Below are positions 7,061 to 10,891 of a stretch of DNA of 20,088 nt, in pieces. Below the pieces are notes generated by a model. The model had not been told where the DNA came from, searched no databases, and was given only the letters and a program-made list of their open reading frames with translations. Made by a program: the position numbers and the translations under genes. Positions within the stretch are counted from its first letter, which is position 1; each line of letters begins with the position of its first letter. The DNA is from a virus, in the IMG/VR virus record IMGVR_UViG_3300002180_000071, positions 1 through 20,088 of that record. The stretch is one strand, 5' to 3'.

Positions 7061-8329
7061 TCACACCTCCCCGAATGCTACCCTCGCGCCCTGGGACAAT
7101 TGGCTCAATACATACCTCTCTGCATCCATCCTGTGGTATTTCTCTTTGTCGTCGATCTTCTCTGTAGGCTCGTTATTGTCGTCCAGTTGTCGGCTGTAAC
7201 TGCCCTTCTCGTCGAGGTATCCCAGGAGATCGTCAAACACATCGATCTCATCCTTGGCATGATAGCCATAGACTCGGTTGATGCCCACCTCTACATCACT
7301 GACTGATGGCGTCTTGATGACTATCCCTGCATTACGGAATTCCCTACGCCACTGATCCTCCGACTTGGACCCACCACACCATAACACCACATCCTCGCCC
7401 TCTGAGAGCTTGAGCCATTCCATGGCGTGTCCCTTGGCCGTCAGTCCACCCTTGTGATATTCACGATAAGCAACCAGTCTCTGAGTCTCCGGATTCTTAG
7501 CATACCACATTGCTGCCGTATTCACGCCCCCGAAGTCACAGCCCACATATCGAGGCCATTCCTGCGGTATGGGGAAGCGTTTGATCTTGCATACGTCTTC
7601 ATCGAAGGCATCATAGATCATCCCCGCAGGCTTGGAATACACGCCGCGATAGAACATATCGAATTTCCACTTCGGCAGTCGCGCCCTAGCATCCTCGAAT
7701 TCCTCTCTCGGGAACGCAGGGTTCATGATACTCTCGAACTGTATCAGCTCGTAATCAGGGTCGCCCTTGAGCGCCTTGTCATGCACCTCATACTTGAGCC
7801 AGTCGAAGAGATACACCGTCGTGGTGATCAGGGCCCTACCCCGGTTGATCGATAGCCGCCGCAACACGGCATCCCAGGAATCCCGCCCGAATCGCTTCTG
7901 CCCTGCCTCGTCCAGCCATGCGCCTTTAGCTGTAGCTGATTCCAGCGAGTCAGCGTTATCCGCAGAGCCGAAGATTATTCGCCATGAACCATCGTGGAAA
8001 TTAAAGGCCTTGTCGTTCTTGGCGTATTCGCCAAGGTTGTATAGCGTCTTGAATGTGTAGAGGAATTCGGGTAGCAATTTGAGGTTGAGCAGCGGAAAGG
8101 ACGCAGTCACGATGAGGAAGTCATGCGTCTGCCCTGGAGGGGGTGGGCCAGATCGGAGATTTATTCGCTGGATCTCGTCGTATACCCATTCGGGGCCCCA
8201 GCATGTCTTGCCTGACTGCGTACCGGCCAGCACACAAGGGAACCGCGCATCGCTATCCGCAGCCCTCGTCTGGCCCGGGTGGAGGTTTATTTTTACTTCG
8301 CCGTTCCTAATCTCCCGAAATGGCTTCAT
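7061..8329 (-). CDS. Terminase large subunit, 422 aa
   Basis: ATP-driven DNA packaging motor with a nuclease domain. The Walker A loop is AGTQSGKT at residues 35-42. Walker B is GAWLDEAGQ with Asp140-Glu141. The nuclease domain starts near residue 255 with the RNase H-like strand YVGCDFGGVN (Asp265), and the C-terminal acidic site is likely in YHRMDAERYVL (Asp402). The length is normal for a TerL. Its start overlaps the end of the small subunit gene by 23 bases, so the two are translated in a coupled way. It feeds DNA through the portal encoded next. Confidence 0.95.
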   Translation of the reverse strand: MKPFREIRNGEVKINLHPGQTRAADSDARFPCVLAGTQSGKTCWGPEWVYDEIQRINLRSGPPPPGQTHDFLIVTASFPLLNLKLLPEFLYTFKTLYNLGEYAKNDKAFNFHDGSWRIIFGSADNADSLESATAKGAWLDEAGQKRFGRDSWDAVLRRLSINRGRALITTTVYLFDWLKYEVHDKALKGDPDYELIQFESIMNPAFPREEFEDARARLPKWKFDMFYRGVYSKPAGMIYDAFDEDVCKIKRFPIPQEWPRYVGCDFGGVNTAAMWYAKNPETQRLVAYREYHKGGLTAKGHAMEWLKLSEGEDVVLWCGGSKSEDQWRREFRNAGIVIKTPSVSDVEVGINRVYGYHAKDEIDVFDDLLGYLDEKGSYSRQLDDNNEPTEKIDDKEKYHRMDAERYVLSQLSQGARVAFGEV

Positions 8330-10247: not shown

Positions 10248-10490
10248 TTATCCAAACCCCTCACCTACGAAATCGAATTCTGGGCACTCCTCAAGTGTTA
10301 TCGTTGGCCGACTACTTAGGGGATCGTCTTTTGGCTTGGGCTCGAAATGGCATTCCATTCGTATCTGTTTGGTGCAACTTTTGGCATCAGCGCAGTAATA
10401 TTCATGGCTACACCATATTCTCGGTTGCCAATCATGACCAGTGGTCACCTCTGGCCCAGGATGGAAGTTCTTGCAATCCTCTGCTCTCAT
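10248..10490 (-). CDS. Cys/His-rich hypothetical protein, 80 aa
   Basis: The protein opens MRAEDCKNFHPGPEV and has further ligand candidates in GHDWQPRIWCSHEYYC, KSCTKQ, MECHFEP and EECPEF: seven cysteines and several histidines in 80 residues. This looks like a small metal-binding domain. The ribosome site is weak (an AAAGGA about 17 bases upstream). The gene starts about 92 bases downstream of the hammerhead cleavage site, so on a cleaved transcript it would be the first gene, with a new 5'-hydroxyl leader. Function unknown. Confidence 0.6.
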   Translation of the reverse strand: MRAEDCKNFHPGPEVTTGHDWQPRIWCSHEYYCADAKSCTKQIRMECHFEPKPKDDPLSSRPTITLEECPEFDFVGEGFG

Positions 10491-10514: not shown

Positions 10515-10683
10515 GTGTTAAGCAGCAAGATTCTTAAACGGACGGCCTTGGCCCCAACTCACCCAGCTAGGGGGCGCTAAGGGACGCTCTCGCGTTTCGC
10601 CTTTCGGCTCATCAGCCTTAATGCTGGGCATGCACCTGCTACCACACCGTCCTGGCAGGCCTAAGGAGCCTGCTGCTTAACAC
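10515..10683 (-). repeat. 13-bp perfect inverted repeat enclosing the hammerhead
   Basis: GTGTTAAGCAGCA (10515-10527 on the plus strand) is matched by its exact reverse complement at 10671-10683, with 143 bases between. A second nested pair, GGACGG with CCGTCC, lies inside, and the hammerhead lies inside that. On the minus-strand RNA these arms extend the ribozyme's stem I into a long rod. The right arm also encodes the last codons of the 76-residue gene. Confidence 0.75.
10562..10628 (-). ncRNA. Type I hammerhead ribozyme
   Basis: Read on the minus strand. Distal stem I is CCCAGC (10628-10623) with GCTGGG (10567-10562). Proximal stem I is TAAGG (10620-10616) with CCTTA (10582-10578). The core follows in order: CTGATGA (10615-10609), stem II GCC-GAAA-GGC, GAA, then stem III ACGC-GAGA-GCGT, then C at 10583. 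All conserved core positions are present, including A15.1-U16.1 and a GUC cleavage triplet. Cleavage is expected between 10583 and 10582. Stems II and III are closed and the ends lie in stem I, so it is type I. The nine-base internal loop on the 3' side of stem I is where a tertiary contact with loop II would sit. Confidence 0.93.
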
Positions 10684-10891
10684 TACCTGCGCCCACCTTC
10701 ACCTTGTACGCCTTTAATCCTTGACGTTGCGCTACCTCACTAGGGGTATTGCCTGTGCGTATATCCTCCATCTGCCGATGCCATGGATATTCAGCAGATA
10801 CCCCAATGGGGTGGCCCTTTACTACTCCAGTGATAGGCCTATCCCAACCCCACTCGAAGCGCTCCCTTTCCTGAAAAGTTCTATACCACAT
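10661..10891 (-). CDS. Hypothetical phage protein, 76 aa
   Basis: Starts at an ATG preceded by GAAGG. The product, beginning MWYRTFQERERFEWGW, is rich in aromatic and charged residues. Its C-terminal half contains a helical stretch TPSEVAQRQGLKAYKVKVG that could resemble a small helix-turn-helix-like motif, though I would not assign one. The last codons (SVKQQAP) are written in one arm of the 13-bp inverted repeat, so the coding sequence and the RNA fold overlap. It is the last gene before the hammerhead ribozyme. Function unknown. Confidence 0.6.
   Translation of the reverse strand: MWYRTFQERERFEWGWDRPITGVVKGHPIGVSAEYPWHRQMEDIRTGNTPSEVAQRQGLKAYKVKVGAGSVKQQAP

Follow-up and report, generated by a model that had tools for sequence, protein, structure and literature searches.

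A hammerhead ribozyme within a larger conserved structured RNA of phages

The locus and the predicted RNA

The window analysed in this study is a 20,088-nucleotide stretch of viral DNA (IMGVR_UViG_3300002180_000071), large parts of which are 100% identical to IMGVR_UViG_3300027852_000093 (39.5 kb), and the two records were therefore considered to be the same phage. The RNA described here occupies the gap between two small open reading frames (ORFs 10661-10891 and 10248-10490) on the same strand, upstream of genes for a ParB-methyltransferase, the small terminase subunit (TerS), the large terminase subunit (TerL) and the portal protein. Around it, neither a promoter-like site nor a minus-strand terminator-like site was found. 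A blastn comparison of an 800-bp region with phages gave no match, and relatives of the neighbouring 80-aa protein were found in the same phage only. The features of the locus, and the basis on which each was assigned, are as follows.

10517..10681, minus strand: whole RNA, scaffold plus hammerhead (independent covariance model; architecture shuffles)
10671..10681, minus strand: P0 5' strand, GTTAAGCAGCA, outer closing helix (11 bp, perfect, with 10527-10517)
10661..10666, minus strand: X, first copy of CCTTAG, overlapping the stop codon of ORF 10661-10891 (repeat)
10655..10659, minus strand: PA 5' strand, CCTGC, partner 10639-10635 (pairing, family covariation)
10647..10652, minus strand: PB 5' strand, GGACGG, pseudoknot strand in the PA loop, partner 10545-10540 (pairing, covariation)
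10635..10639, minus strand: PA 3' strand, GCAGG (pairing)
10623..10629, minus strand: P1b 5' strand (outer stem I), GCCCAGC, partner 10567-10561 (pairing; family helix 100% paired)
10616..10621, minus strand: Y, stem I 5' strand, TTAAGG, with X' or X as possible partner (pairing)
10609..10615, minus strand: hammerhead core CTGATGA, C3-A9 (sequence read; core pattern scan)
10599..10608, minus strand: stem II, GCC-GAAA-GGC (sequence read, pairing)
10596..10598, minus strand: core GAA, G12 A13 A14 (sequence read)
10584..10595, minus strand: stem III, ACGC-GAGA-GCGT (sequence read, pairing)
10583, minus strand: C17, with predicted cleavage 3' of this base, 10583/10582 (H17 spectrum in 89 relatives)
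10577..10582, minus strand: X', second copy of CCTTAG, stem I 3' strand, with a predicted 5'-OH end at 10582 (repeat and pairing)
10571..10575, minus strand: PK1 5' strand, GCCCC, within the stem I internal loop, partner 10555-10551 (pairing, covariation)
10561..10567, minus strand: P1b 3' strand, GCTGGGT (pairing)
10551..10555, minus strand: PK1 3' strand, GGGGC (pairing)
10540..10545, minus strand: PB 3' strand, CCGTCC (pairing)
10517..10527, minus strand: P0 3' strand, TGCTGCTTAAC (pairing)
7061..8329, minus strand: TerL gene, downstream (phrog_2, E 5.2e-26)

A complete type I hammerhead core was present on the minus strand at 10629-10561. All of the core elements (C3 U4 G5 A6 N7 G8 A9, G12 A13 A14, A15.1-U16.1 and H17) were found between 10615 and 10583, stems II and III were closed by loops, stem I was open, and the helices covary in relatives. 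The initial annotation, which had proposed a minus-strand type I hammerhead with a full core, was thus borne out by the sequence and by the comparative evidence. It had also described stem I as two perfect helices around a one-sided internal loop of nine bases. The two helices and the 9-nt loop on the 3' side were confirmed, but the loop is not strictly one-sided because a single unpaired A lies on the 5' side. The inner helix (TTAAGG 10621-10616 with CCTTAG 10582-10577) consists of five Watson-Crick pairs and one U.G, and the outer one (CCCAGC 10628-10623 with GCTGGG 10567-10562) carries an additional G.U pair. The GAAA loop of stem II lies opposite the stem I internal loop, and these might form a stem I/II tertiary contact.

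The core pattern matched once in the window, and one match was obtained in 2 of 100 shuffles before any pairing requirement. The unconstrained fold of the region was a different structure (-26.7 kcal/mol, against -22.0 kcal/mol for the hammerhead), so thermodynamics alone would leave the hammerhead unproven, and the case for it rests on comparison. At the level of sequence, this comparative evidence establishes the hammerhead where folding energy cannot. A strong match to the Rfam hammerhead models had been expected, but a search of the window at the gathering threshold reported nothing. Below threshold, RF00163 scored 23.5 bits (E 0.0015 over 301 bases and 2.4e-5 over the record) against a gathering score of 34, which is a detection threshold and not a structural definition of the hammerhead.

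The hammerhead is contained in an RNA of approximately 165 nt (10681-10517) with an 11-bp closing helix and two H-type pseudoknots. The scaffold consists of P0 and the PA hairpin, whose loop pairs with a distant 3' segment (PB), together with P1b and PK1, which form a pseudoknot of the H type; the hammerhead is inserted in the P1b loop and borrows the conserved repeat X' as the 3' strand of its stem I. All five scaffold helices (P0, PA, PB, P1b and PK1) were found in the window in the topology of the family, and the full architecture arose by chance in 2 of 20000 shuffles of the window flanks. A covariance model built without the window matched 10666-10529 over model positions 1-149 of 149 with 52 bits (E 4e-13), a score to which the hammerhead itself contributes in part. 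Together with L056, L028, L007 and L009, the window forms a subtype of sequence that is rare in the family. These four sister members gave a partial match only to the window-free model, and their X repeat is less exact than that of the window. Two baits designed on this subtype recovered only the window, L056 and chance coding matches.

Relatives and covariation

The core together with a short stem II served as the pattern for a first scan of IMG/VR, and structural filtering left 16 sites including the window, the flanks of which aligned well past the hammerhead. Further scans were performed with letters of the flanks rather than of the core, and at least 119 sites were parsed. Any member recovered with a bait necessarily matches the bait sequence; conservation of the core and within GGGGAATAACTG was therefore set aside, and pairing partners lying outside the baits were used as evidence. 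Among the matches listed, the 119 parsed sites comprised 72 with the hammerhead, 20 without it, 12 permuted, 5 with altered cores and 10 classed as unresolved, of which two were false matches and most others further members. With the addition by hand of the sites that could be resolved, the set used for analysis of context contained at least 116 members.

These relatives, at least 116 in number, came from phages of Pseudomonadota, Actinomycetota and Cyanobacteriota, with one copy per record as a rule. The hammerhead is modular, being present in most members, missing in at least about 20 that keep the scaffold, and accompanied by circular permutation of the whole RNA in at least about 12-15. 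Named carriers include Arthrobacter phages Constance and Karkharias, Mycobacterium phage Gaia and prophages of M. abscessus, with a version lacking the hammerhead in Microcystis phage Mwe-JY26. The permuted form was found in Enterobacter phage SDFMU_EhYP and in E. coli prophages; further matches came from phages of Dickeya and Pectobacterium and from 15 of 5426 E. coli genomes, the latter covering 73-74% of the query. Tandem pairs of the RNA were observed at two loci (L072 and L110), about 110 and 172 nt apart. A scan of genome contigs with the core pattern gave five chance matches in coding sequence, which had no hammerhead structure and were rejected.

For analysis of covariation, 108 unique members among the matches listed were aligned with the insert removed, and all column pairs were ranked by corrected mutual information. 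The top 12 column pairs were 11 helix pairs (from PA, PK1, P1b and PB) and one pair reflecting the identity of X and X'; further helix pairs occurred at lower ranks among weaker, mixed ones. The covarying PB column pairs ran from 16-92 to 22-86, and two additional single pairs (5-75 and 39-60) alternated between G-C and U-A. In a second, separate alignment of 24 members with the hammerhead, standard pairs were present in 88.1% of cells, compared with 67.1% after shuffling and 37-46% when partners were slid. Double-change cells numbered 174 (59±6 in shuffles), and the observed score was reached in none of 500 shuffles. Across these 24 members pairing reached 95.7% in PA, where each of the 5 pairs showed double changes, and 100% in PK1, where 4 of 6 pairs did; P1b was also 100% paired, and stems I and III covaried. 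A P0 score of at least 10 was obtained for 29% of the unpermuted relatives among the matches listed, compared with 0.9% of shuffles. Covariation in the aligned sequences thus shows the scaffold, its topology, and a hammerhead that is optional and permutable.

The identities of U16.1 and H17 were not imposed by the search. Among the matches listed, position 16.1 was U in all 89 members bearing the hammerhead, and position 17 was C in 48, A in 38, U in 3 and G in none. This spectrum, with C17 at 10583, supports the previously proposed cleavage between 10583 and 10582 as a prediction. The 10.1-11.1 pair was G-C in 58 of the 89 members listed and A.A, U.U or C.A in 30. Such mispairs, which earlier screens had rejected, were observed in L105, L135, L160, L155 and others. 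In the active hammerhead structure C3 and G8 pair with each other. In three members (L077, L139 and L124:3001-3139 from Mycobacterium phage Gaia) the core reads TTGANAA, with U3 and A8 jointly replacing C3 and G8, and this constitutes natural covariation inside the catalytic core.

Direct repeats, proposed mechanism and alternatives

X lies just 3' of P0 and X' just 3' of the predicted cut, and the two are direct repeats. In the main type the repeat is NCGYGG (type B consensus); in the window subtype it is replaced, and in the window itself CCTTAG occurs twice (10666-10661 and 10582-10577), with an identical first base. Among the parsed members listed, the first base of X and X' was identical in 107 of 108 (CC in 55, GG in 42 and TT in 10), and this identity was kept in 19 of the 20 members without a hammerhead. 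Pairing of Y with X was at least as long as that with X' in 67 of 84 relatives listed. The ability of Y to pair with either repeat would be consistent with a change of pairing partner or with ligation. Strand exchange by Y cannot, however, be the sole cause of the X/X' identity, because 19 of 20 hammerhead-free members retain it. Direct pairing between X and X' was rejected, as it fails in members whose first base is G, and column 5 of X covaries with column 75 instead. A partner in cis for the repeat was sought in the hammerhead-free members and was not found; in 17 of these 20 the base immediately 5' of X' could pair with the first base of X if G.U is allowed.

We consider it probable that the window encodes a structured phage RNA of about 165 nt that is nicked by its inserted hammerhead, with a scaffold that is likely a trans-acting stable RNA. 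It is most likely a stable phage RNA nicking itself into a two-piece form. Hammerhead cleavage yields 2',3'-cyclic phosphate and 5'-OH ends. Cleavage 5' of X' would leave the cyclic phosphate on C17 and the 5'-OH on 10582. Such a cut would nick the folded RNA without cleanly separating its parts, because P0, PB and the outer stem I join the two halves, and the product would be a nicked RNA of two pieces, held by P0, PB and P1b, and not separate mRNAs. The freed Y strand might then swap X' for the identical upstream X; alternatively, ligation by the hammerhead could join C17 to the end of X. For the scaffold, the most likely role is that of a stable, trans-acting RNA produced along with phage tRNAs or late transcripts. 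A more specific version is put forward tentatively, namely that the RNA represents a class not previously described in phages, in which a double-pseudoknot scaffold carries a conserved strand-swap repeat (X/X') and the hammerhead is an interchangeable nicking module placed exactly 5' of X', the self-made 5'-OH end and the two identical repeats allowing rearrangement (for example strand exchange, or ligation by the hammerhead with circularisation) that would serve a function in trans in the infected cell.

The initial annotation had interpreted the hammerhead as a stand-alone element splitting a leftward polycistronic mRNA into an accessory/replication part and a packaging/head part and exposing a 5'-OH end. 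The position of the window RNA between two small ORFs of the same strand and upstream of the ParB-methyltransferase, terminase and portal genes is compatible with this, and comparable transcript processing has been proposed for phage and clustered prophage hammerheads (PMC3088659). Against it, the hammerhead is a domain of the larger conserved RNA at 10681-10517 and is embedded in conserved flanking structure, the relatives sit in very different gene contexts, about 20 have the scaffold but no hammerhead, some are permuted, and the halves would probably still be base-paired after the cut. Splitting of the mRNA is thus unlikely as the main function and possible only as a side effect, and the original interpretation, which is partly supported, was too narrow.

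A role as a processing spacer in tRNA operons, with self-cleavage trimming neighbouring tRNA transcripts, is equally improbable. Of the 116 relatives listed, 32 had a tRNA no more than 300 nt away, compared with 11% for random positions in the same loci, and in all 32 the tRNA was on the same strand. Such trimming has been proposed for HDV-like theta ribozymes of gut phages, which are connected with phage tRNAs (PMC10879173). Most of the members listed, including the window, have no nearby tRNA, however, hammerhead-free members also occur in tRNA clusters, and the cut would fall inside a folded RNA and not at a tRNA end.

When a conserved neighbouring gene was sought, terminase was found to recur, but in a minority of loci only. 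TerL was the commonest recurring neighbour (10 of the loci listed, on the same strand in all), and in about 8 of the 26 records listed with a detectable TerL the RNA was within approximately 2.5 kb of it on the same strand. By analogy with the pRNA of phi29, this might indicate a packaging-associated RNA. That function is considered more improbable still, as TerL was distant in most of those records and phage maps cluster terminase genes and late leaders in any case. Finally, an inactive sequence that resembles a hammerhead by chance or after decay, as the sub-threshold Rfam score and the different minimum-energy fold might suggest, is very improbable in view of the covariation in stems I and III, the presence of every core base in the window, and the retention of core and pairing in about 90 of the relatives listed, with C, A or U and never G at position 17.

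In the E. coli prophages the permuted RNA lies immediately downstream of a terminator-like sequence, between the genes for Q-type antitermination and the holin; this position would place its synthesis at the beginning of the lambdoid late transcript. This permuted RNA is unannotated in the prophage of E. coli MB06231 (L237:5010-5200) and in 14 other E. coli genomes.

Relation to known RNAs

The window hammerhead resembles RF00163 (Hammerhead_1) in its core (CUGANGA, GAA, A-U and H17), its C-G-S order, its open stem I and its hairpin stems II and III. Unlike in RF00163, stem I of the window hammerhead is split by a loop containing one strand of a pseudoknot, stem II is limited to 3 bp, and a larger conserved RNA supplies the 3' strand of stem I, with the score of 23.5 bits against 34 given above; some relatives also differ from that family by A.A or U.U at 10.1-11.1, or by U3-A8 in place of C3-G8. 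RAGATH-1 (RF03152) is similar in being a hammerhead with a conserved upstream 5' hairpin. It was not matched by the window (18 bits against 56.3, E 1.2), and its model, in which stem II is a single pair, contains no P0, PB or PK1. The hammerheads of Perreault et al. 2011 (PMC3088659) are likewise found in phages and prophages, have stem I loop pseudoknots and can have a very short stem II. In those the pseudoknot joins loop I to the nucleotides immediately following stem II, whereas in the present RNA the partner of the stem I loop lies 3' of the entire hammerhead, within a scaffold that exists without the hammerhead too.

Type-SGC hammerheads (HRIMA-1; Eckert et al. 2023, PMC10085705) share the presence of several pseudoknots and the theme of permutation. 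Their hammerhead blocks are reordered as S-G-C, an order that was not found in the window; here the core retains C-G-S and it is the scaffold that is permuted in some members. The theta ribozymes (PMC10879173) are also self-cleaving RNAs connected with phage tRNAs, but they are HDV-like and not hammerheads. No HDV-family match occurred among Rfam matches to E 10 for the window region, L070 and L187.

At the gathering threshold, Rfam reported no hammerhead in eight and in a further sixteen loci of the family, and tRNAs were found in the sixteen. Two hammerhead-free members had no convincing Rfam match even at E 10, and the scaffold was absent from all Rfam 15 families tested. A signature string of the scaffold was found in no searched paper (the one match was unrelated), and a keyword search of the literature, which covered few subscription papers or supplements, gave no description of it, so an earlier description is possible. 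The hammerhead is therefore of a known kind, and the larger scaffold RNA appears to be undescribed.

The role of prokaryotic hammerheads has been named as an open question in a review (PMC6155905). One widespread set of phage hammerheads, which the Rfam models miss, is now tied to a conserved scaffold RNA in which the hammerhead is optional, and this raises the question of what the whole RNA does and why it should cut itself. Hammerhead-free and circularly permuted versions occur naturally and can be compared, and direct tests are possible with the members carried by E. coli prophages and by cultured phages of Enterobacter, Arthrobacter and Mycobacterium. Short annotated 'hypothetical proteins' overlie the RNA at L125:2961-3071 (Constance gp68) and L238:3013-3129 (Pappous), and are probably not genes. 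In two members without a hammerhead (L106 and L217), and perhaps in L087, another short insert (...TGAGATACCACAT...) was observed immediately 5' of X', and might represent another module.
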